The notes under the pieces are model-generated. The model was not told the origin of the DNA. It made no database searches and saw only the letters and a program-made list of their open reading frames with translations. DNA of 43,735 nt from a virus: IMG/VR virus record IMGVR_UViG_3300020147_000016, positions 1 to 43,735 of that record. The stretch is one strand, 5' to 3'. The translations under genes and the position numbers were made by a program. How positions within the stretch are numbered: position 1 is the first letter of the stretch; every line of letters begins with the position of its first letter. Below, one piece after another: positions 2,393-40,745 of this stretch.

Positions 2393-4179
2393 GAGGTCGC
2401 CTCCTTGATCTTCGCCACCACGGGCTCCAGCGCGCGCGTGGCTACCGTCTTGGCGATCAAGTCGCTCACTTTCCCGGCCTTGCCGCCAGCCTTGGACTCC
2501 ATGATCGCCAGCAGCTCCTTGCCGAGGCCGAGGCGCTGCGCGTACTCCTGCAGCTCCGCGCTCGGCACCTGCTTACGCCACGGCCGGTTGCGGTCCGCGA
2601 TCAGCCGGCCGATGTCCCCGCCGCGCTCCTCGGCCTCCTGCTCGGCGACGGTGAGTGCGAGCTCGAGATCGGGCAGATCCTTGTGCAGGCGAACCGCGGC
2701 CATCTTTCGTACGCCGGCCTGGACGTAGGCGAACACGCTCGTCCCGACCACGAAGACGTACTCCCGATCCTTGGAGATCGGAAGGAACGGCGTGCCGTGT
2801 TTGGTCGCGCGCCACACCTTGCTCGAGCGCTGCACGAGTGGATCGAATTCCACGGGGCTGACCTGGCCAGTCCAGAGCCGTTGCCGATTGGCTTCGTCCA
2901 GCTCCTTGCCGAGGTTCCAGGCGTCCTCCATGGCCACTAAGGAGCCTTCGGCCTTGCGGTCCAGCGGCCGATCGGAGAGGTCGGCGACCGAGCAGAGATC
3001 GGTGGTCGCGTCCGCCACCGTGATGAGAATGCAGTCCTGCTCCTCCACGGGGATGCCGGGCACCGGTCGCAGACCGCGGCCGGCCATCTGGATAAACAGG
3101 GAGCGGCTCTTGGTGGGGCGCCCGACGATGACGCACTTCGTCCGCGGCGAGTCCCAGCCCTCGGTAAGCACCATGGCGTTGACCAGGACTTGGATCTTGC
3201 CGGCTTCGTAGTCGGCCAGGGTGGCGCGCCTGAGCAGGTCGGGCATGTCGCCGTGGATCACTTCCGCCGTGACACCCACGGAGCGGAACGCTTGCGCCAG
3301 AGCATGAGCCGATCGCACGAGCGGCATGAAGGCGACCGTGGAACGGTCGCTGGCCAGCTCTTGCCACTCCTCCACGATCTTTTCCGGCGCCATGGCATCG
3401 ACAAGCTGCCGATCGAGTGTGTCCGCCGCAGTAGTCCATCGATCGACCGCGCTTCGGTCGCCTTGGCCGAGGTCGGCAGGATCGATCTCCAGCCGGTAGC
3501 CGACCGGGTTGACCAGGAAGCCCTTGCGCACGCCCCACGAGACGTCACGGGAGTAGGCGACGTCCTCCCAGACCTCCCCGAGCCCCTGGCGGTCGCCGCG
3601 CTCCAGGGTGGCCGTGAAGCCAAGGGCGGGGGTAATGATCGCTGGATCACCATGCTCAGGGCAGTCCCGCTCCGGGCCGTCGCTTCCCGCGTGATACGGA
3701 AGGCAAGAGCATCCCATGCACCCGAAGTGCCGCATGATCGCCTGGTAGCTGGCCGCGGTCGCGTGGTGGCACTCGTCCACGATCACGAGGCCGACGTCGA
3801 TGATCCGCGCCCGGCGCTCCGGGCTGGCCAGCGTCTGCACGCTGCCGATGATGATGTCCGCGCCCGTCTCGTCGCGCTCGGCCTTGACGATGCCGACGGT
3901 CCAGGCGTCGCCGACCACGAGTTTGACCTTGGCGTATGCCTGGCTTGCCAACTCGTCGGTATGCACGAGGATGAGCACACGCTTTCCCCACGGCGGCGGG
4001 GTGTGCTGATCTGGCGGTCCTTGATCCAGGAAGCGCCGCGCCCGCTCGGCGAACGTGATCGTCTTGCCGGCGCCGGTCGGCAAGACGATGGCTAGGCGCG
4101 TCTCGTCGGGATGCTCGATCTGGTGCTGAGCCTCGGCCTCAAGAGCGTCGAGCTGATATTGGCGAAGCTGGATGGTCAT
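2389..4179 (-). CDS. SF2 DEAD/DEAH-box helicase (ResIII/type III restriction-like)
   Basis: A 596-residue ATP-dependent DNA helicase. Walker A PTGAGKT is at 34-40, motif II DECHH at 135-139, motif III-like FTATLERGD follows, and motif VI QMAGRGLR lies in the second RecA-like domain. A Cys cluster (CMGCSC ... CPEHG) sits between the motifs and may bind zinc. The start is the ATG that overlaps the stop of the upstream 44-residue gene (ATGA), with GGAAGG upstream. It probably acts with the downstream nuclease in end processing or replication restart. Confidence 0.88.
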   Translation of the reverse strand: MTIQLRQYQLDALEAEAQHQIEHPDETRLAIVLPTGAGKTITFAERARRFLDQGPPDQHTPPPWGKRVLILVHTDELASQAYAKVKLVVGDAWTVGIVKAERDETGADIIIGSVQTLASPERRARIIDVGLVIVDECHHATAASYQAIMRHFGCMGCSCLPYHAGSDGPERDCPEHGDPAIITPALGFTATLERGDRQGLGEVWEDVAYSRDVSWGVRKGFLVNPVGYRLEIDPADLGQGDRSAVDRWTTAADTLDRQLVDAMAPEKIVEEWQELASDRSTVAFMPLVRSAHALAQAFRSVGVTAEVIHGDMPDLLRRATLADYEAGKIQVLVNAMVLTEGWDSPRTKCVIVGRPTKSRSLFIQMAGRGLRPVPGIPVEEQDCILITVADATTDLCSVADLSDRPLDRKAEGSLVAMEDAWNLGKELDEANRQRLWTGQVSPVEFDPLVQRSSKVWRATKHGTPFLPISKDREYVFVVGTSVFAYVQAGVRKMAAVRLHKDLPDLELALTVAEQEAEERGGDIGRLIADRNRPWRKQVPSAELQEYAQRLGLGKELLAIMESKAGGKAGKVSDLIAKTVATRALEPVVAKIKEATS

Positions 4180-7915: not shown

Positions 7916-10291
7916 GTGACGGATAGTACCAACCGTGAAGCCATTCGGGCATATCTAGTGGGTCTCTACGGCGAGAACCCCAACGGGTATGTGTGGATCG
8001 GCGGCCACGGGGACGGCTTCAAGGGACGTTCATTCCTCGACATCGATGCCGCCAGCGACTACGCGGAGCGGCTCGATCAGCGTGACGGAGCCGGCGTCTA
8101 CCACCGCAGCACCACGCTTGCGCGCACCCTCGAGAAGGGCCGGGGCGATGCCGGCGACTCGGCCGCGGTCTACTACTTCGCGCTGGACCTGGACCTGAAA
8201 GGCCCTGGTCACAAGGCCGTAGATTTGCCGGAGACGAAGACAGACCTACTGGAACTGATCGAGGCCGCAGGCTTTCCTGAGCCCACGGCGTGGGTCTTCT
8301 CGGGAGGCGGGTACTACCCGCAATGGCGCTTTCATGAGCCGATCGACGTCCGTGAACCGGACATGCGTAAATGGGTGACTGATTCCTTTTCGCTCATGGC
8401 GGATCACTTCATCGCCAAGGGCAAGGAGCGCGGCTGGAAGCTGGACAACGTGCGCGATCTGGCGCGCGTCTTCCGGCTCCCCGGCACCACGAACCGTAAG
8501 GCCGATCCGGTGCTCGCCTCGCTCGAGCGGATGGACGGGCCGACCCATGACCTCGGGGTACTGGCCAGCCTGGCGCGGCCGAACCGCGGCGTCGTGCACG
8601 AGCCGGCGCCGGCCGCGCCGATGCTGATCGAGGACGCGATCGAGGAGCGCTGCTTCACCGAGGAACAGGCGAAAGAGTTCGTGCTCACCGCGCGCACGAA
8701 GCTGGCCGAGACCACGTCGGGCTACAACAACGCGATCAATGCGTTCGCCATGGCGTGCGCGCACTTCCCGTGGCTGGTTGATCGGGAGCGTTGCGCGAAG
8801 TTCGTGATCAAGGCGCTCGGCCCGAGCACCGGGTGGACCGAGCCGGACGGCGACGACATCGCCACCATCGACAGCGCCTACCGCGCCACCGAGGCCGGCA
8901 AGAGCTGGACCGCGGTGAAGGTGGAAGGCGGCGCCGGCCCGGACGGAGTCGAAACCTTCGCCGTCCTGCCTCCCCCTGGCCAACCCTTGAAGGTGGCCAG
9001 GGAATTGAAGTCGCTCATTCCGGCCACTGACGGTGCTCCGCACCTGGCATGGTGGCAGGACGACTTCTATCGCTGGACCGGTGCGCACTGGGAGGTGGAA
9101 CCCGAGCCCGTCGTGCGGCGCTGGCTCTATCGGCAGACCGGGGACGCGGTATACCTCACGGCGCCCAAAAAGGATGGGGAGCCCCCGGAGCGGAGCCCGT
9201 GGGCGCCGACCAAACAGAAGATCGCCAACGTCATGGACGCGCTCGGGGTGGCCGAGATTCAGCACGTCGGCGAGGAAGACCGGGCCCTGGCCGCTGCCAA
9301 CGGGGTGATCGAACGGCGCCGGCTGACGCCGCACACTCCGCGGCGTTTCAATCTGTTCAGCCTGCCCTTCGATTACGACCCCGCGGCCTCCTGCCCTGTC
9401 TGGCACGCTTTTCTCGATCAGGTGCTGCCTGGTGACGTACAAGCTCAGGACTTCCTCGGCGAGTGGTTCGGGTACGTCATCAGTGGCCGGACCGAGCAGC
9501 AGAAGATGGCCGCGCTGGTTGGCAAGAAACGTTCGGGCAAGGGCACCATCGCGCGCGTCCTCACCGCCCTGATCGGCAAGGACAACGTGTCCGGGCTCAA
9601 TCTCGGCTTGATCGGCGGGACGTTCGGGTTGGAGCCGTTCATCGGCTCCGCCCTGGCCGTGGCTTCCGACGTGCGCTGGCATTCGCGCAACATCGGCGAC
9701 GCTGTGCAGGTGCTGCTGGAGATCTCCGGCGAGGATCACGTCACGGTCAACCGGAAGAACAAGTCCGCCTGGAAGGGGCGTCTCGGGGTGCGCTTCATGC
9801 TCATGAGCAATGACACGCCCACCTTCTCGGACCGGTCCGGTGCTCTGGTGGACCGCATGCTCTATGTGGCGTTCAGGCAATCGTTCTTCGGTCGCGAGGA
9901 CACGTCGCTGACCGAGAAGCTGATGGAGGAGCTGCCCGGGATTCTCAACTGGGCCCTGGACGGTCTGGAGAGGCTGGACGCTCGTGGCCGATTCACTCAG
10001 CCAGACAGCGGGCGGGCCGAGGCGGAGGCAACCCGGCGACTCGCCGATCCGATCGGGGCCTTCATCGAGGATTGGTGCGAGGTCGGTCCGGATCAACACA
10101 TCAGCCTTGATCATCTTTACCTGAAATACCGGAATTGGTGCGAGGCCGAAGGCCGCACAAAGGACACGACTACCAAGGAGATCTTTAGTCGGGACCTTCG
10201 GCAAAAGGTTGACACTCTCACCTCAAAGCGGACACGCGAGGCGGGCAAGTTCGTAACCGTCCTGCACGGCATCGGGAGTGCCGCCCTGTAA
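7916..10291 (+). CDS. Primase-polymerase (AEP)/SF3 helicase fusion replication protein
   Basis: About 791 residues. The N-terminal ~300 residues carry an archaeo-eukaryotic-primase-like core: FALDLDLKG (catalytic DxD), then WVFSGGGYYPQWRF and ARVFRLPGTTNRK, as in primases of integrative elements and D5-type phages. The second half is a D5/SF3 helicase with Walker A GKKRSGKGT near 536 and a C-terminal winged-helix-like region. The GTG at 7916 has AAGGA 7 bases upstream; ATG 7901 is the alternative. No DNA polymerase gene is present, so this is the likely initiator/primase. The origin candidate follows directly. Confidence 0.88.
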   Translation: MTDSTNREAIRAYLVGLYGENPNGYVWIGGHGDGFKGRSFLDIDAASDYAERLDQRDGAGVYHRSTTLARTLEKGRGDAGDSAAVYYFALDLDLKGPGHKAVDLPETKTDLLELIEAAGFPEPTAWVFSGGGYYPQWRFHEPIDVREPDMRKWVTDSFSLMADHFIAKGKERGWKLDNVRDLARVFRLPGTTNRKADPVLASLERMDGPTHDLGVLASLARPNRGVVHEPAPAAPMLIEDAIEERCFTEEQAKEFVLTARTKLAETTSGYNNAINAFAMACAHFPWLVDRERCAKFVIKALGPSTGWTEPDGDDIATIDSAYRATEAGKSWTAVKVEGGAGPDGVETFAVLPPPGQPLKVARELKSLIPATDGAPHLAWWQDDFYRWTGAHWEVEPEPVVRRWLYRQTGDAVYLTAPKKDGEPPERSPWAPTKQKIANVMDALGVAEIQHVGEEDRALAAANGVIERRRLTPHTPRRFNLFSLPFDYDPAASCPVWHAFLDQVLPGDVQAQDFLGEWFGYVISGRTEQQKMAALVGKKRSGKGTIARVLTALIGKDNVSGLNLGLIGGTFGLEPFIGSALAVASDVRWHSRNIGDAVQVLLEISGEDHVTVNRKNKSAWKGRLGVRFMLMSNDTPTFSDRSGALVDRMLYVAFRQSFFGREDTSLTEKLMEELPGILNWALDGLERLDARGRFTQPDSGRAEAEATRRLADPIGAFIEDWCEVGPDQHISLDHLYLKYRNWCEAEGRTKDTTTKEIFSRDLRQKVDTLTSKRTREAGKFVTVLHGIGSAAL

Positions 10292-10590
10292 GGCTGTGCA
10301 GGGTGGTGAGCTGCTTGTGCAGGCTTGTGCGGGGTGTCTGGTGACACCCCGCACAACTGTTTTCGCAGCTCACCACCCCTATTTCTTCTCTTGTGCAAGA
10401 TGTGCAAGGTAAAAGTACGTATATATAAGAGCGTCAAGAGGTAGCAAGAATTAGTGATGTTAGAACCGAGTAGGGTTTTAGCCTGCACAACCCTGCACAC
10501 AAGGCCGAAAAAGCGGGCCTGAGCAGGCAAGACAGCATGTGCAGCCTCCCCTGGCCGACCGTGCACATGCAGACACATGGCTTATCCGTC
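10292..10590. other. Candidate replication origin: nested inverted repeats, TTGTGCA repeats, AT-rich run
   Basis: There is no gene in this 300-base stretch. GGGTGGTGAGCTGC (10301-10314) pairs with 10365-10378, and inside it TTGTGCGGGGTGTC (10325-10338) pairs with 10343-10356; each is 14 bp. TTGTGCA-type boxes recur in both orientations: near 10295, 10315, 10325, 10351, 10391, 10401, 10482, 10492, 10539 and 10561. An AT-rich tract (10411-10430, TAAAAGTACGTATATATAAG) lies between them. Iteron-like repeats, a dyad and an AT run directly after the replication protein gene is the expected origin layout. The hairpin could instead terminate transcription. Confidence 0.55.
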
Positions 10591-12570: not shown

Positions 12571-12802
12571 GCTGCTCAGGAGTCTTGAGCGCCCTACCTG
12601 GCAGTTCGGCCCGGATGCCCTCGAGCACCCCGTCCCGTGCCGCTGGCCGTTCGAGTCGTGCCGTGGCCATGTGACGAGTTATCCACAGGTTTCTGCACAG
12701 GCTATGCATAAAGAGCTTTCTAAATCCGGGCACAGTGCGCATGGCCCGGGATGGCATCGAGACTGCGCGGCCTGCGGCACGGCATGTGGGAGCTGTCTGT
12801 GA
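12563..12802 (+). CDS. 79-residue Cys/His protein upstream of terS
   Basis: Cysteines at CRWPFESC and a C-terminal H-x2-C-x2-C ... C-x2-C cluster suggest zinc binding. It starts at a GTG overlapping the previous gene and ends overlapping the terS GTG (GTGA). Many actinophages have a small Cys-rich or HNH-type gene at this position before terminase, but no HNH core is visible here. Confidence 0.6.
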   Translation: MTELLRSLERPTWQFGPDALEHPVPCRWPFESCRGHVTSYPQVSAQAMHKELSKSGHSAHGPGWHRDCAACGTACGSCL

Positions 12803-13305
12803 GCGGCGCTACGCGGCGCGACCGCGGCAAGCTCGGTGGCCTTAAGCGCAACGGTCTCATCCGCGCGCTGGCGCTCGAGGACGTCACGCAGGCAGCCCTG
12901 GCCGAGCGCTACGGCGTGACTGAGGGTGCGATCACGCAGTTCAAGCATCGTGAGGCCGAGGCGATCCAGGCGTTGCGCGATGAAGCGGAGAACGAGTTCG
13001 CAGGCATCCTCATTGCGCAGAAGGCGAATCGGCTCCGTGCGCTCGAAGAGCTCTTCGAGGTGGCGCGCACACCGACGCCGAAGGTCGCACCGAACGGCAA
13101 GATCGTCCGCGAGTACGTCACGAACGAGGACGGCTTGGCAGAGGAAGTCGTTGTCCAGGAGGTGGACGTGCGCGCGGCGGCCGGCGTGCTGAAGCAGGCG
13201 GCCGAGGAGATGGGTCAGCTCGTGGCGCGCACGCAGGTCAGCGGGGACATGAACACGACCACCACGTACCGCATCGAAGGGGTCTCGCCGGACGACTTGC
13301 GCTGA
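12799..13305 (+). CDS. terS: Terminase small subunit
   Basis: A 168-residue protein. The N-terminal helix-turn-helix (ALEDVTQAALAERYGVTEGA) would recognise the packaging site. A central helical stretch is the oligomerisation region, and the C-terminal tail (IEGVSPDDLR) would contact the large subunit. The GTG start overlaps the upstream stop. The last 10 codons reappear almost unchanged at 14499-14531 after the methyltransferase, showing that this junction was duplicated. Confidence 0.75.
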   Translation: MSGATRRDRGKLGGLKRNGLIRALALEDVTQAALAERYGVTEGAITQFKHREAEAIQALRDEAENEFAGILIAQKANRLRALEELFEVARTPTPKVAPNGKIVREYVTNEDGLAEEVVVQEVDVRAAAGVLKQAAEEMGQLVARTQVSGDMNTTTTYRIEGVSPDDLR

Positions 13306-13324
13306 GCTATCCTTCTGCTATGCT
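13272..13324 (+). repeat. First copy of the terS-end/promoter repeat
   Basis: These 53 bases (last terS codons plus -35 and -10) match 14497-14549 with no gaps and only a handful of substitutions, mostly near the -10. Confidence 0.85.
13297..13324 (+). promoter_or_regulatory. Leaderless promoter of the methyltransferase
   Basis: TTGCGC (13297-13302, inside the end of terS), a 16-base spacer, TGC-TATGCT (13319-13324), then 6 bases to the ATG at 13331. Confidence 0.75.
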
Positions 13325-13330
13325 AGGAAC

Positions 13331-14482
13331 ATGATAACCATGGCGGACTCAGAGATCCGCACCAAAGCCTCCCTATGTACCGGCGTCGGAGGCCTCGATG
13401 AGCAGCTCCCCGGCGAGCTTTCCTGGCTGGCCGAGACGGATGACTCCTGCTCCCGGCTGCTCAAGCGCGAGCACCCGGACGTGCCCAACCTCGGGGATAT
13501 CACCGCCGAGGGCTTCCCCGGTACGCATGTCGACCTGCTCACCTCCGGCGACCCTTGCCAGTCCATGAGCGTTGCCGGGCGTAAGCGCGCCAGCGAGGAC
13601 GAGCGGTTCCTCTGGCCGCATGTCATGGACGTCATTGACCAGGTGAAGCCGCGGCAGCTCTTCCTGGAGAACGTCCAGAACGTCACCAGTGTGGCACTGG
13701 TCAAGGGCGCCGATGACTGGCGCGGCCAGAAGGGCAGCGTGCTCGCCATGCGCCTGTCCGACCTGCGCGCCGCCGGCTACGCCTGCCGATGGATGGTGCT
13801 CGGCGCGTGCGCGGTCGGTGGCTGCCACCATCGGCACCGATGGTTTCTGCGCGCCTGGCACGTCGGCCAGGGCGCGCCGGAAGCTGAGCGCGTGATCACG
13901 AAGTGTGGCGCGCCGCGCACGGGTGGGCGGATTCTCCTGCCCACACCCACCGCGAGCTCGTACGGCAGCAATCAGGGCGGCGCCGCCGGTCGCGTCGGTC
14001 CGGTCCGGCACTCGCTCGAGTCCATGGCCCGCATGGACCTCTTGCCCACTCCGCGCGCTACAGACATCGGCACCGGGGGACGACGCTCATCCGAGGGGTG
14101 GCGGCCTCAGCTCGGCCAGGCGGTCATGGCGGAAACGCTCCTGCCTACTCCGCGCGCTACGGATGGCACCAACGGTGGACCGAATCAGCGCGGTCGGCGC
14201 GGTGATCTCACCATGGGCTCCGCTGTCCAGGCCGAGCACTGGGGCAAATACGCGGCGGCCGTCATGCTCTGGACCGAGGTCTTCGGCACGCCGCCGCCCG
14301 AGCCGACCGAGCCAGCTCCGAAAGGTGGCCGCCGACTGAATGCCGCCCTGTCTGAATGGATGATGGGCCACCGCGCCGGCTTCCTCACAGACGAGTTCGC
14401 GCGCAACGACGCGCTACGGATGGCGGGCAATGGGGCGATGGCCATGCAGTCGCGCGTGGCATGGGACATTCTCGGCCAGTGA
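13331..14482 (+). CDS. DNA (cytosine-5) methyltransferase
   Basis: A 383-residue protein. Motif I is CTGVGGLD, motif IV GDPCQSMS (catalytic Cys), motif VI LENVQN, motif VIII a C-HHRHRWF segment, and motif X MAGNGAMAMQSRVAW. The variable target-recognition region carries LLPTPRATD-type repeats, as in other phage Dcm-like enzymes. It probably methylates phage DNA against host restriction. The stop overlaps a GTG that begins a 22-base near-copy of the terL start, so this gene once sat directly before terL. Confidence 0.9.
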   Translation: MITMADSEIRTKASLCTGVGGLDEQLPGELSWLAETDDSCSRLLKREHPDVPNLGDITAEGFPGTHVDLLTSGDPCQSMSVAGRKRASEDERFLWPHVMDVIDQVKPRQLFLENVQNVTSVALVKGADDWRGQKGSVLAMRLSDLRAAGYACRWMVLGACAVGGCHHRHRWFLRAWHVGQGAPEAERVITKCGAPRTGGRILLPTPTASSYGSNQGGAAGRVGPVRHSLESMARMDLLPTPRATDIGTGGRRSSEGWRPQLGQAVMAETLLPTPRATDGTNGGPNQRGRRGDLTMGSAVQAEHWGKYAAAVMLWTEVFGTPPPEPTEPAPKGGRRLNAALSEWMMGHRAGFLTDEFARNDALRMAGNGAMAMQSRVAWDILGQ

Positions 14483-14531
14483 CCACTGCTCTTGTTCATC
14501 GAAGGTGTTTCGCCGGAGGACTTGCGCTGAG
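14479..14531 (+). pseudogene. Fused relics: terL start (14479-14500) plus terS end (14497-14531)
   Basis: 14479-14500 matches the terL start at 15053-15074 in 20 of 22 bases and overlaps the methyltransferase stop as GTGA. It runs directly into a frame ending IEGVSPEDLR-stop, the terS tail with one change. These non-functional scraps mark the joint of a recombination between two versions of the packaging locus. Confidence 0.8.
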
Positions 14532-14549
14532 CTATCTGTGTGCTATAGT
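14522..14549 (+). promoter_or_regulatory. Promoter of the structured RNA/82-residue ORF/terL unit
   Basis: TTGCGC (14522-14527), a 16-base spacer, TGC-TATAGT (14544-14549). Unlike its sister copy, the ATG that follows (14554) is immediately followed by TAA. The transcript therefore starts with about 240 untranslated bases. Confidence 0.7.
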
Positions 14550-14796
14550 AGAGATGTAAGGCAGGAAGTTGAAAATTCCAGAGCGGCAGAGTCAAATCTC
14601 CCGAAATACGTGGTTGAGTCACACGGTGAGGGGGACAGGCTAGGGAACGGCAACGGGCTACGGCCCGAGGGTGACACCGAGACCTCTCAGCTCGAAACTG
14701 GCGAGCCAGTCAATCAGCCGAGGATGGGATGCCCCACCGGCAACGCCCCCCTAGCGCTCTGCCGCTCCGGAGCACCAATCGACACAAGGGGCGGAT
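14550..14796 (+). ncRNA. Structured RNA leader or small RNA between the terS relic and terL
   Basis: No ORF of substance is present. GAGCGGCAGAG (14581-14591) pairs perfectly with CTCTGCCGCTC (14757-14767), and CC/GG extends it past one mismatch. Nested inside, GCTAGGG (14639-14645) pairs with CCCTAGC (14749-14755). Local hairpins include CGGGC-TACG-GCCCG (14654-14667, a UNCG-type tetraloop), GCTCG/CGAGC (14690-14706) and CGTG/CACG (14609-14625). A closed multi-branch fold of about 190 nt behind its own promoter suggests a cis-regulatory leader, a packaging-linked RNA or another ncRNA. No known family assigned. Confidence 0.6.
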
Positions 14797-15045
14797 ATGA
14801 AAATGGATGCAGGGGATCTGATCGTCCAGAACTTCACCGCCTCCGAGCGTCGCGCATGCTCCTCCTTCTTCTCAGGCCGTGAATCAAGTCGCTCCCAGCG
14901 CGATTCGCTCCGCGTGGCCATCGCCCGTGCCTCAAACCGAGATCTCGCGGAAGCGATGCGTGAGTTCTTCAACGGCATGCGGACCGAGGGTGAGCCCATT
15001 CCCTCCTGCTTGGTCACTTCGGCGCTTCGACTGCTTGCTGCATGA
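14797..15045 (+). CDS. 82-residue unknown protein before terL
   Basis: ATG at 14797 behind AAGGGGCGG, right after the structured RNA. The protein is mainly helical (RRACSSFFSGR ... LRVAIARASNRDLAEAMREFF), soluble and slightly basic. No family recognised. It is present only in the second copy of the duplicated junction, so it is cargo rather than core packaging machinery. Confidence 0.65.
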   Translation: MKMDAGDLIVQNFTASERRACSSFFSGRESSRSQRDSLRVAIARASNRDLAEAMREFFNGMRTEGEPIPSCLVTSALRLLAA

Positions 15046-15052
15046 TCGCAGT

Positions 15053-16420
15053 GTGACCACAGCTCTTGTCCATCACTTCCGACCCCGCGGTGCCGCAGCA
15101 GAAGCTATGCGGTACCGCGGGCCGGAAGTGCTGCTCGCCGGGCCTGCCGGCACTGGAAAGAGTCGTGCCGCGCTCGAGAAGCTGCACCTGATCTGCCTGC
15201 TCACGCCCAAGGTGCGCTGCCTGATCATGCGCAAGACAGCCGTCTCGCTGACCACCTCGGCCATCAAGACGTACGAGTCGGACGTCGCCGTCCAGGCGCT
15301 CCTGGACGGCACGGTGACGTTCTTCGGTGGCTCGCGGCGGGAGCCGGCGCAGTATCGCTACTCCAACGGCAGCACCATCGCTATCGGTGGCATGGACAAC
15401 CCGATGAAGATCATGTCCACCGAGTACGACGTGATCTTTGTGCAGGAGGCCACCGAGCTCGAGGTGGACGAGCTCGAGATGGCAACGACACGCCTGCGTA
15501 ACGGCGTACTCTCCTTCCAACAGCTGATCATGGACTGCAATCCGCAGGAGCCCACGCATCCGCTCAAGCTGCGCTGCGAGTCCGGCAAGACGCTCATGCT
15601 GCACTCGCGCCACGAGGACAATCCTCGGTACTTCAACGAGGACGGCTCGATGACCGACGCCGGCCGCGATTACATGGCACTGCTCGATGCGCTCACCGGC
15701 GTCCGCTACCTGCGCTTGCGCAAAGGGATCTGGGCTGCGGCCGAGGGCGTCATCTACGAGGAATTCAACCCTGCGCTGCACGTCATCGACCGGTTCGAGG
15801 TCCCCGAGGACTGGCGTCGCATCTGGACCGTGGACTTCGGTTACGTCCACCCGTTCGTTTGGCAGGACTGGGCCATCGATCCGGATGGCCGCGCTGTGCT
15901 CGTGCATGAGATCCACAAGACAGGCAATCTCGTGGAGGATCACGCGCGCACCATCCGCGCGCATTGCGGATGGGGTCCGATCAACACCGATACCGGGCGC
16001 CCGCGGTCTTTCGATGGACCGCCCGTCACCGGCTGGCGCGCCAAACGCCCCGAGCGCATCCTCTGCGATCATGATGCCGAGGACCGGGCCACGCTCGAGC
16101 GGCACATCGGCCAGCGCACCCGGCCGGCGAACAAGAACGTGAAGGACGGCATCCAGGTCGCAGCCGGCCGGCTCCGGCTCGATGGTCGCGGCCGGCCGCG
16201 GGTGGCCTTCATGCGCGATGCCGGCATCGTGCGCGATATCGAGCGCGAGGATGCCAAGAAACCGACCTCCACCCTTGCCGAATTCCCCGGCTACGTCTGG
16301 AACAGCAAGGGCAAGGACGAGCCGACGAAGATCGATGACGACGGCATGGACTGCTACCGCTACATGATGATGGAGCTGGACGCGCAGCCCAAGGCGCGCG
16401 TGCGCTTCATGCGGGGTTGA
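15053..16420 (+). CDS. terL: Terminase large subunit
   Basis: A 455-residue packaging motor. Walker A GPAGTGKS is at about 30-37, with Walker B VIFVQEAT near 130, for ATP-driven DNA translocation. The C-terminal RNase H-like nuclease shows DFGYVHPF near 260 and a second acidic site CDHDAED near 337. The GTG start follows the 82-residue ORF by a few bases. I prefer it because its first 22 bases recur exactly at the MTase overlap. It acts at the portal with TerS. Confidence 0.9.
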   Translation: MTTALVHHFRPRGAAAEAMRYRGPEVLLAGPAGTGKSRAALEKLHLICLLTPKVRCLIMRKTAVSLTTSAIKTYESDVAVQALLDGTVTFFGGSRREPAQYRYSNGSTIAIGGMDNPMKIMSTEYDVIFVQEATELEVDELEMATTRLRNGVLSFQQLIMDCNPQEPTHPLKLRCESGKTLMLHSRHEDNPRYFNEDGSMTDAGRDYMALLDALTGVRYLRLRKGIWAAAEGVIYEEFNPALHVIDRFEVPEDWRRIWTVDFGYVHPFVWQDWAIDPDGRAVLVHEIHKTGNLVEDHARTIRAHCGWGPINTDTGRPRSFDGPPVTGWRAKRPERILCDHDAEDRATLERHIGQRTRPANKNVKDGIQVAAGRLRLDGRGRPRVAFMRDAGIVRDIEREDAKKPTSTLAEFPGYVWNSKGKDEPTKIDDDGMDCYRYMMMELDAQPKARVRFMRG

Positions 16421-37242: not shown

Positions 37243-39036
37243 GTGCCTCAGAACGCAGCACCCCTGATCAGTTGGCGCGGCGAGCACGCCCGCGTCCCCC
37301 TGCCCCTGCGCGTGCTCTATCGGTACTTCATCACCGGGCAGGCGCTCCGCGGCCCCGGGGACAACGCCACCTTCCTGCACCGCGCCACGGTGGACTACCG
37401 GGCGCGTCCGTACGTCACCCTTACCGGGCCCATCTGGCAGCGCCTGGCGCGCCGGCACGCGGCTCTCACGCTGCCGGCGCTGCTCCTGATATTTGCCGGA
37501 TGGCAAGCGGCGTGCGTGTGGCTTGCTGCCACCTGGCCGATAGCGATGTGGTGGATCGTCCGGTCAGCCATCCGCTGGGCCCGGCGCAGGCGCAACAACC
37601 AGAGCTTCATCGACCCTGCGGCACGCGTGCTGTACACGCTCATCGGTGGCCGGTACACCAAACGCGCCGGCCGTGCTGCCATTGAGCTGCCGGAGAACTG
37701 GGGTAAGGAGGCGCAAGGGGCCGTGCGCGTCTCCATCCCGCCGTCAGTCGCGCTCAGCCCGCGGTTGAAGCAGGCCATCACAGAGAACGTCGGAGCCCGG
37801 CTCGGCATCCCCTCGCCCGTCCGCGGCGACTGGCGAGAGGCCGGCGCGAATGTGTGCGTGGAGCTCTCCTCGGCGCCGCAGCCGCCCAAGACGGTGACCT
37901 TCGAGGGCCTGCGCACGGCCATCGAAGAGTGCGCCGATGACGAAATGATCGTTGGCCGGAAGGCTCAAGGTCATCTTGTCAAGGTCAGCCTCAGCGAGGA
38001 CTCGCCGCACTTCATCATGTCCGGTCCCGCGGGCACCGGTAAGAGCGTGCTCATCCGGGTAGCGCTCGTGCAGCGTGCCCTGAGGGGTGATGGCTTGATC
38101 ATCCTCGACCCTAAGCGCTTCTCACATTGGCGCTGGGCAGGCGGTGGCAAGCTCTCGAAAGAGCAAGTGATCTACGCCTACCGCGATGCTGACCTACATG
38201 AGACGTGGGTCGCGATCGGCGAGGAGATCAAGCGACGCATCGAGCTGCCGGAGGATGAGCTGGATGGCCAACGTCGGGTGATCATCACCGTCGAAGAAGC
38301 CAACGTCCAGACCAAGAAACTGGCCCGGTACTGGCGCGGCCTGCGCAAGGAGATCATCCTCGCGGCCAAGCAGGCGCAGGCGGACGACGCGCCGTTTGAC
38401 CCCGCCGACCTCGATCCACCGCTCCAGTCACCGGCGATCGTGGCCATGCAGGAGAGCGTGTGCATGGGACGAGAACTGAGGATGCATGTCCTCGTGGCCG
38501 CTCAGCGTGCGAGCGCCTCGGTCTTCGGTGGCAACGGTGGTGACATCCGGGAGAGCTTCCAGGGCGGCCGATTCATCGCCCGGTGGGACCGCAAACTCTG
38601 GAAAATGTTGGTGGACACGATCGACTACATCGCCTGCCCCTCACGCGACCGCGGCATCTGGGGTGTTGCCAGAGCGGACGGGTTTGAGATCTTCCGCGTG
38701 CCCTGGCTAGAAGAGAAGGAGGCGTTGGACATCCTGTCCAACCTGGACGTGTCCACTGGCCCAGTGCTTGGCCAGTCCTGGACATCATTGGACACGCCGG
38801 CCAAGCAGGCGCTGCCGACCGCGGTCACTCTGGCCGAGGCGTTGGACATGCTCCCCGGCCAGGACGGGCCGATGGCCATCGGCCTTGGCCGGCTCCGGCG
38901 AGCGTCCACCGAGCCCGGTTTCCCGGAGCCCATCGAGAAGCCGGACGGCACACCGTACGGGCGTACTGAAGCCCGACTGTACGACCTCTCGGCCTTGATC
39001 CACTGGCGTGAAGGGGTCTACGCGCTTAAGCGCTGA
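37243..39036 (+). CDS. FtsK/SpoIIIE-like DNA translocase (plasmid Tra-type)
   Basis: 597 residues from GTG 37243. Two N-terminal membrane helices lie around 73-110. The motor has Walker A GPAGTGKS (261-268) and a Walker B-like VIITVEEAN. In actinomycete plasmids and integrative elements a single protein of this class moves double-stranded DNA between cells. Its gene is normally near spd genes, as here. The C-terminal part encodes several TGGACA-type DNA motifs. An alternative role is DNA positioning inside the host. Confidence 0.82.
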   Translation: MPQNAAPLISWRGEHARVPLPLRVLYRYFITGQALRGPGDNATFLHRATVDYRARPYVTLTGPIWQRLARRHAALTLPALLLIFAGWQAACVWLAATWPIAMWWIVRSAIRWARRRRNNQSFIDPAARVLYTLIGGRYTKRAGRAAIELPENWGKEAQGAVRVSIPPSVALSPRLKQAITENVGARLGIPSPVRGDWREAGANVCVELSSAPQPPKTVTFEGLRTAIEECADDEMIVGRKAQGHLVKVSLSEDSPHFIMSGPAGTGKSVLIRVALVQRALRGDGLIILDPKRFSHWRWAGGGKLSKEQVIYAYRDADLHETWVAIGEEIKRRIELPEDELDGQRRVIITVEEANVQTKKLARYWRGLRKEIILAAKQAQADDAPFDPADLDPPLQSPAIVAMQESVCMGRELRMHVLVAAQRASASVFGGNGGDIRESFQGGRFIARWDRKLWKMLVDTIDYIACPSRDRGIWGVARADGFEIFRVPWLEEKEALDILSNLDVSTGPVLGQSWTSLDTPAKQALPTAVTLAEALDMLPGQDGPMAIGLGRLRRASTEPGFPEPIEKPDGTPYGRTEARLYDLSALIHWREGVYALKR

Positions 39037-39081
39037 CCCCCTCGTTTTCGCAGGTAGGGTAAGGTTGCGCCTAAGCAGCAC

Positions 39082-39118
39082 AAAGCCCCCGGCCTTCCTC
39101 CATGAGGCCGGGGGCTTT
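39082..39118. terminator. Bidirectional terminator after the translocase gene
   Basis: AAAGCCCCCGGCC and GGCCGGGGGCTTT form 13 pairs, with A and T runs on both sides so that either strand can use it. Confidence 0.85.
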
Positions 39119-39133
39119 GCTGTTTGCGGAGGG

Positions 39134-39271
39134 TCAGATGTTACCGATGTAGATGCTCCCGCTCCCTCCGCAGGCTGCGCAGGTGCGCTCCGTGACCTTG
39201 CCGTGCTTGTCGGCGACAAGCTGCTTACCAGTGCCGTTGCAGCTCTGGCACCGTCTCACTCGCTCCGCCAT
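39134..39271 (-). CDS. 45-residue DnaJ-type zinc-finger protein
   Basis: Two CxxCxGxG-like motifs (CQSCNGTG and CAACGGSG), the zinc-binding unit of DnaJ, make up most of the protein. ATG behind GGAAGGATGGGG, from its own promoter at 39308. Such free-standing motifs are common in Streptomyces plasmids and phages. Partner unknown. Confidence 0.7.
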   Translation of the reverse strand: MAERVRRCQSCNGTGKQLVADKHGKVTERTCAACGGSGSIYIGNI

Positions 39272-39341: not shown

Positions 39342-40220
39342 TTAGCGCCCCGTCCGCCACCTGCGTGCCTGTCGCTGCGACACGTTGAACGTGGAGGCCA
39401 CGAGCGCGTCCACCGCACCCAGCGCATCCCCGGCATCCAGGCACTCCTGGATGAGCTTCTGTGCCTCAGCCGGCACGCCCTCGATCACCGGCACGGACGG
39501 CGCCGGCCGCTGGACACCGTTGGCCACGGCCTCCGCTTCGTCGGCCAGCTCCTGGCCAGCCTGCGCGATGGCGTTGAACACCTGCTTGTCCCATCCGTCC
39601 AGCTCCCTGTCCCATTGGACAGGGTCGGCGGCAGGCTCTGTCCAACCTTCCAGCCGTCGCGTGTCCAACTGGACAGAGGGCTGGACATCGTTGGACAGGG
39701 GCGTGTCCAACTGGACAGAGGGTTGGACATCGTTGGACAGGGGCGTGTCCAACTGGACAGAGGGTTGGACATCGTTGGACAGGGGCGTGTCCAACTGGAC
39801 AGAGGGTTGGACATCGTTGGACACGGCACGCGTGACCAGGATCTTTGCCATGGCCATGATGGCCAGCCCATCGATGGCCAGTGGCCAGAGGATGGCCACC
39901 AACAGCAGCTGGCCGCGGGCCAGTAGTAGCTCATGGATGTGCAGCCAGGACACGACCATGGCCAGGGTGCCGACCAGCAGAGTGGCCGACCAGCGGACGG
40001 CCTGGACACTGAGCCGGCGCGGCCAGGCGGACACGAAGAGCTCGGCCACGAGCAGGCTGGCCAGTGGCGGGCCGATGGCCAGCGCGATGTCCACCGCGTC
40101 CACCGCGTCCGCCCGGATGCGGTAGGTGTCTGCCAGGTTGCCGGCCACCGAGAGGCCGGCGCCGACCAAGAGGCTGACGTAGGCCACCGCTCCGGTCCAG
40201 AGTTTGCCGAGCTTGGTCAT
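39342..40220 (-). CDS. DUF2637/SpdB-like membrane protein with four 14-residue repeats
   Basis: 292 residues. Four membrane helices fill residues ~8-130, as in DUF2637 proteins of actinomycete conjugative plasmids and elements, which help plasmid spread between cells. Then come four copies of SNDVQPSVQLDTPL, the last ending DTRR. The C-terminal ~50 residues (VPAEAQKLIQECLDAGD ... VSQRQARRWRTGR) have a helix-turn-helix look and could bind DNA. ATG overlaps the upstream stop, with GGGAGG before it. Confidence 0.78.
   Translation of the reverse strand: MTKLGKLWTGAVAYVSLLVGAGLSVAGNLADTYRIRADAVDAVDIALAIGPPLASLLVAELFVSAWPRRLSVQAVRWSATLLVGTLAMVVSWLHIHELLLARGQLLLVAILWPLAIDGLAIMAMAKILVTRAVSNDVQPSVQLDTPLSNDVQPSVQLDTPLSNDVQPSVQLDTPLSNDVQPSVQLDTRRLEGWTEPAADPVQWDRELDGWDKQVFNAIAQAGQELADEAEAVANGVQRPAPSVPVIEGVPAEAQKLIQECLDAGDALGAVDALVASTFNVSQRQARRWRTGR
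39661..39828. repeat. Four tandem 42-base repeats
   Basis: Units begin at 39661, 39703, 39745 and 39787. The copies are nearly identical. Each contains TGTCCA-AC-TGGACA (inverted repeat) and two more TGGACA words, so four motif copies per unit. Recent tandem expansion in frame. Confidence 0.92.
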
Positions 40221-40662: not shown

Positions 40663-40745
40663 ACTATAGCAGAGACATAGCTACCTTGCCAACGAATGTG
40701 ACGTAGGCCACATGTCTTGCAGTGGGGCTATGTCTCTGCTATGCT
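40663..40745. promoter_or_regulatory. Divergent promoters with an operator-like site between them
   Basis: Leftward: TTGGCA (minus, 40687-40692), 18-base spacer, TATAGT (40663-40668), leaderless. Rightward: TTGCAG (40717-40722), 17, TATGCT (40740-40745). The 18-base ATGTGACGTAGGCCACAT (40696-40713) lies between the two -35 boxes, well placed to control both. Confidence 0.65.

Follow-up and report, generated by a model that had tools for sequence, protein, structure and literature searches.

A predicted closed RNA between its own promoter and a small open reading frame in the variable terS–terL slot of an uncultured phage: a possible structured leader

The window, that is, the whole stretch of DNA analyzed here, corresponds to one IMG/VR virus record (43,735 bases) from an uncultured phage, probably an actinobacterial one. 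The region between its two terminase genes, hereafter the terS–terL slot, follows the order terS, C5-cytosine methyltransferase, RNA, ORF82 and terL, with the following features:

12751–13305, plus strand: terS, a small terminase-like HTH protein at the upstream border of the slot, 41–82% identical to the proteins encoded ahead of terL in four of the relatives
13331–14482, plus strand: C5-cytosine DNA methyltransferase, the first cassette of the duplicated slot (PF00145, 2e-23; phrog_363)
14522–14549, plus strand: promoter, made of TTGCGC (14522–14527), 16 nt and the extended −10 TGC-TATAGT (TATAGT at 14544–14549)
14556, plus strand: predicted transcription start, GTAAGG, aligned to promoter-class members in which the A of ATAAG or of a leaderless ATG marks the +1
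14577–14771, plus strand: closed RNA domain, a multi-branch structure of ~195 nt (z −4.0 for 14575–14773)
14786–14791, plus strand: Shine-Dalgarno sequence AAGGGG of ORF82, predicted to pair with ORF82 codons (hairpin 14780–14852), outside the closed domain
14797–15045, plus strand: ORF82, an orphan, all-helical small protein with a ribosome site and a weak coding score
15042–15056, plus strand: mini-ORF ATG ATC GCA GTG TGA, which overlaps the stop of ORF82 in ATGA and the start of terL in GTGA
15053–16420, plus strand: terL, the large terminase, with a GTG start, at the downstream border of the slot (phrog_2, 1e-31; PF04466, 7e-10)

No informative PHROG or Pfam family was found for terS. As originally predicted, the RNA lies between a promoter and an 82-residue ORF.

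Upstream of the RNA, TGCTATAGTA occupies positions 14541–14550, with TTGCGC 16 nt ahead of the TATAGT hexamer. A generic consensus scan missed the good promoter that had been claimed here, but the comparative evidence for it is strong: the pattern TTGCG-N16/17-TGCTATAGTA describes a phage promoter class with 43 matches in nine related contigs, against 0 for a reversed control pattern. Members of this class are found in the window at 13316, 14541, 16441 and 40737 on the plus strand and at 40671, 39316, 5479 and 1059 on the minus strand, and also in the relatives L182–L201. The class has a fixed +1, and in many members an ATG sits right at that expected position, 15 nt past the first T in TGCTAT, so that the corresponding genes are leaderless. 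The methyltransferase of the window likewise has a leaderless ATG at the promoter spacing, 15 nt past the first base of TGCTATGCTA. The remaining members carry ATAAG or a similar sequence at +1, with a ribosome site and a start codon 17–34 nt further on, and their short leaders begin with ATAAGCAAG. From the alignment with the class members, we infer that transcription of the RNA starts at about 14556. Here, 241 non-coding bases separate the +1 from the first start codon that has a ribosome site; comparably long non-coding outputs of the class are confined to tRNA-like arrays (the minus-strand promoter at 1059 of the window, L195 and L183) and to the slot of L061.

The array at positions 1–1060 of the window (minus strand) comprises about five aberrant tRNA-like RNAs driven by one promoter of the class, and similar arrays occur in L183 and L195. 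One of these RNAs (589–670) has a 12-bp anticodon-arm hairpin and another (292–385) an enlarged arm, and several that go uncalled by ARAGORN (at about 197–278, 480–545 and 905–1045) possess T-arms and acceptor stems. The first element has a 75% identical homolog in L183, and as judged by eye the closing helix shows one or more compensatory replacements of A-U by G-C; the T-arm of this element resembles that of a Streptomyces phage tRNA-Lys. Another tRNA-like RNA of L183 lacks nearly all of its anticodon arm.

The fold of the RNA between terS and terL agrees with the original prediction. An 11-bp helix (gagcggcagag at 14581–14591 with ctctgccgctc at 14757–14767) and a 7-bp helix (gctaggg at 14639–14645 with ccctagc at 14749–14755) were recovered exactly where they had been proposed; a UNCG-capped hairpin (pairing probability 0.95) and two further helices (0.95–0.98) that they enclose were recovered as well. 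The predicted elements are:

14581–14592/14756–14767, plus strand: P1, the outer helix, 12 bp with one G·U pair and a probability of about 1.0 in the partition function of 14556–14860
14639–14645/14749–14755, plus strand: P2, 7 bp, probability about 1.0
14649–14651/14745–14747, plus strand: P3, inside P2, probability 0.73
14597–14635, plus strand: an arm composed of 14597–14602/14630–14635 and 14609–14612/14622–14625, probability 0.95–0.98
14654–14667, plus strand: UACG-capped hairpin CGGGC-UACG-GCCCG, probability 0.95

P1 gains 3 bp more beyond an A·C mismatch (14577–14579/14769–14771). Downstream, the hairpin 14780–14852, which involves the ribosome site and codons of ORF82, is unexceptional (z only −1.4).

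When compared with shuffled sequence, a check put forward with the original prediction, the RNA folds better: the region 14550–14796 reaches −96.7 kcal/mol (z −2.4), with 2 of 200 shuffles equally good, and the closed domain 14575–14773, whose borders were picked after the fold had been seen, shows a z of −4.0 that none of 300 shuffles attained. The genome itself is a more demanding background. A z as low as that of the RNA occurs in about 6–12% of all its 215-nt windows, although a closing helix of 12 bp or more that spans 150 nt or more is present in only 0.6–1.1% of genome windows and in none of 600 shuffles. This genome contains 11 perfect 11-bp inverted repeats with 60–230 nt spacing, ten in addition to that of P1, versus 0–7 in simulations. 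Moreover, the minus strand is about equally stable (−98.1 versus −96.7 kcal/mol), without the strand preference typical of selected RNA. The closed structure is likely to be real, though not proven, standing out clearly against shuffles and less clearly against its own genome. The frequency of equally low z values, the abundance of similar inverted repeats and the similar folding of both strands all favor the view that this is fortuitous folding or decayed cargo, a remnant either of a leaderless gene or of a double-slot recombination, in a GC-rich genome rich in inverted repeats. We consider this explanation unlikely, while giving it appreciable weight; the absence of so long a closing helix among the 600 shuffles argues against it, as does the neat position of the domain between the +1 and the ribosome site.

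Other folds were noticed along the genome. The strongest (z −9.8), at 10290–10500, is a long hairpin, GGTGGTGAGCTGC...GCAGCTCACCACC, within a stretch of 51% GC that has repeated TGTGCA motifs and could be a replication origin. The second strongest fold region (39001–39216, z −7.1) contains a 15-bp hairpin at 39081–39119. A 10-mer with a 42-nt period (39660, 39702 and 39744; whole stretch 39660–39753) is complementary to 39816–39825.

The earlier statement that no ORF competes with the RNA held only in part. A 108-codon open frame begins exactly at the +1 (14556, with GTA where relatives have ATG), and it scores as non-coding: its RNA part gives −0.35 per codon, versus at least 0.05 in all 18 of the 18 leaderless ORFs of the clade, and the other frames of the RNA stretch score about equally low or lower under codon and position models. 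No credible relative of the 108-codon frame was found, the two weak matches among 396 genomes being at chance level. A protein-coding reading of the RNA stretch was rejected on these non-coding scores. A frame open right from the +1, with GTA in place of the ATG, is a point in favor of a decayed leaderless gene, whereas its non-coding score and the lack of a credible relative weigh against such a remnant. The downstream ORF82 has a coding score of 0.02, just under the lowest of the 18 leaderless ORFs and well over shuffles. No relative of ORF82 was found in IMG/VR, GTDB, INPHARED, Pfam, PHROGs or NCBIfam, a match to Pfam Exo70_C being discarded as below the cut-off. Its single-sequence AlphaFold2 model is helical and fairly confident (mean pLDDT 80.8), and a fold search with this model gave no match.

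Searches for relatives of the RNA gave a uniform picture. There was no blastn homolog among phages, plasmids and whole relatives, and at most chance matches in 396 genomes of an actinobacterial host's phylum. A single-sequence covariance model found no homolog in 139 loci, 15 relatives and 12 genomes, and three exact-pattern scans of IMG/VR with 16–17-mers returned chance-like matches only. This absence applies to the phage, plasmid, IMG/VR and genome collections searched, and does not amount to absence elsewhere, metagenomes outside that scope included. A 20-nt match in L233 and L235 was set aside, as it lies inside a protein-coding gene reading like ribonucleotide reductase. The RNA has no match in Rfam, and the homologs that the original prediction had sought in Rfam and in genomes were not found in these collections. 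Neither ARAGORN nor Rfam called a tRNA within 14480–15060, no IscB/HEARO or retron family of Rfam matched the RNA, no domain of an RNA-guided nuclease or a reverse transcriptase was seen in ORF82, and the literature yielded nothing on an RNA between terS and terL. With no homolog of the RNA there is no covariation to count, and no direct sign of selection on its pairs.

The locus, on the other hand, can be compared among relatives. The terS–terL slot carries from 0 to 2.5 kb of cargo that differs between them, and in relatives with a 40–80% identical TerL it is either empty or filled with an endonuclease, a methyltransferase, small ORFs or another RNA. The slot of L004 is empty, with the terS stop overlapping the terL start (TGACGTGACC); in L003 and L006 a single small leaderless ORF occupies it; L005 carries an endonuclease VII-like ORF (from a translation read by eye) along with small ORFs; L059, a methyltransferase; L061, an unrelated closed RNA besides small ORFs and a methyltransferase; and L057, other genes. 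The slot DNA methyltransferases are of two types. In the closest named phages, Thermobifida phage P1312 and Streptomyces phage Dagobah, terL directly follows the preceding gene, terS. L057 was considered as a second copy of the RNA, with a similar +1 sequence (GTAGGCAGG), yet a normal ORF lies there. This ORF is flanked by two near-identical terminator-like hairpins (3564–3589 and 3945–3974; CCCCCTGATC..GATCAGGGGG-CTTT), which suggests another duplicated cassette border.

These comparisons bear directly on the packaging-linked role raised by the original prediction. The pRNA of the tailed phage phi29 is compact, closed and shorter than 200 nt, and the RNA of the window, a closed multi-helix RNA of like size adjoining terL, shares with it (RF00044) the compact closed form and the proximity to packaging genes. 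It differs, however, in that it is not conserved with the terminase: it is absent from every relative examined that has the same terminase, including those with a 40–80% identical TerL, where the slot is varied or empty. Moreover, the phage of the window has a separate terS, and the RF00044 covariance model gave no match at the gathering score or at E values up to 10. The variable slot content, together with the abutting terS and terL of the closest named phages, therefore makes a packaging RNA like that of phi29 unlikely, and we assign it a minimal probability.

In the window, the slot is duplicated in tandem, with the methyltransferase followed by scars and then by the RNA and ORF82. Two scars are recognizable:

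14479–14499, plus strand: copy of the terL start, GTGACCACTGCTCTTGTTCAT versus GTGACCACAGCTCTTGTCCAT at 15053–15073 (2 mismatches in 21, 0 expected)
14497–14551, plus strand: terS-end copy together with the promoter, an 85% match to 13272–13326 in a repeat search

The terL-start copy is fused to the terS-end copy at a common CATC. Because of these scars, the RNA+ORF82 and methyltransferase cassettes are probably alternative occupants of the slot that were joined by recombination. As marks of rearrangement at the slot, the scars also count in favor of fortuitous or decayed cargo. The cassettes with leaderless promoters (13316 in the window, L003, L006, L056 and L062) have the promoter class, the slot and the terL junction in common with the RNA cassette, but they start with a leaderless ATG, whereas the RNA cassette starts with 241 nt of non-coding RNA.

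The closed RNA of L061 (IMGVR_UViG_3300025910_000148), at 3878–3975, has an 18-bp terminal helix from about the +1 and a z of −3.6; no relatives of it were found. It resembles the RNA of the window in its promoter class, its position ahead of terL and after a methyltransferase, and its long terminal helix. In contrast, the two share no sequence similarity, the L061 RNA is a rod of about 100 nt rather than a multi-branch structure of 195 nt, and it is followed by only a 4-codon mini-ORF.

Such an unrelated closed RNA, with its 18-bp closing helix and z of −3.6 under the same promoter in the same slot, is consistent with a trans-acting cargo RNA, for example a decoy or inhibitor of host defense, that would be processed from the terL message or made beside it. 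The accessory nature of the slot load, with two methyltransferase types and an endonuclease VII-like ORF, points the same way, as does the use of the same promoter class for tRNA-like RNAs. However, no terminator or processing signal was seen at the 3′ end, no homolog exists elsewhere in the collections searched, which is unusual for mobile cargo, and no target is known, so that we regard a trans-acting role as rather doubtful. A broader proposal would see the slot as a site of interchangeable cargo that includes stand-alone closed RNAs (those of the window and of L061), acting in trans against host defenses beside methyltransferases, in phages with aberrant tRNA-like arrays; we rate it as improbable.

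How the RNA is connected to terL can be followed on the sequence. The lone terminator-like match between the two, at 14845–14861, is weak, lies inside ORF82 and is equaled in number by shuffles. Because no credible terminator intervenes, the RNA is probably the 5′ part of an ORF82–terL transcript. The mini-ORF at 15042–15056 is likely to serve as a relay for translational coupling: the ATGATC....GTGA layout recurs in L059, L060, L061 and L062, which suggests coupled translation into TerL.

We tentatively favor, at somewhat under an even chance, the explanation that the RNA is a non-coding, strongly folded and cis-acting 5′ leader of a lineage-specific accessory RNA+ORF82 cassette in the variable terS–terL slot. 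It shows features expected of a structured mRNA leader, namely an upstream promoter, no credible terminator before the ORF, no coding signal and a fold above that of shuffles. The promoter class and the missing terminator before terL likewise sustain the original suggestion of a possible leader with its own promoter. The RNA has in common with structured 5′ leaders of phage mRNAs its own promoter, a folded non-coding 5′ part, and a ribosome site and ORF next to it; it differs from them in matching no Rfam family, and its regulation is putative. As a cis-acting leader, it would begin at about 14556 in a transcript running through ORF82 into terL, the usual leaderless start being swapped for a structured leader with a ribosome site of the ordinary kind. 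As a stable and insulated module at the 5′ end, the closed domain would protect the message and prevent pairing between the leader and the ribosome site of ORF82, and the ATGA/GTGA relay would couple the translation of TerL to that of ORF82. A simple role in holding that site open is not evident, given its own predicted pairing with ORF82 codons.

A multi-branch leader ahead of a ribosome site could also suggest a riboswitch-like element, sensing a ligand or a protein and controlling ORF82 and terL. We find this hard to credit, as the closed domain, without pairing to the ribosome site, offers no expression platform, neither a terminator nor an antiterminator was seen, Rfam has no match, and terL does without the RNA in L003, L004, L006 and others.

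The by-products of the analysis are more interesting: the cassette slot, the leaderless promoter class, the closed RNA of L061 and the odd tRNA-like array. If the RNA acts in cis, as in the leader explanation that we favor, it would be one more orphan structured leader, and the clade provides its natural controls, in which the same promoter and slot are found with a leaderless ORF, an empty junction or the RNA. If it were instead a trans-acting cargo, the RNA would join the interchangeable payloads of a hotspot at the terminase genes, and the comparison of slots would allow further RNAs of this kind to be located independently of sequence homology.
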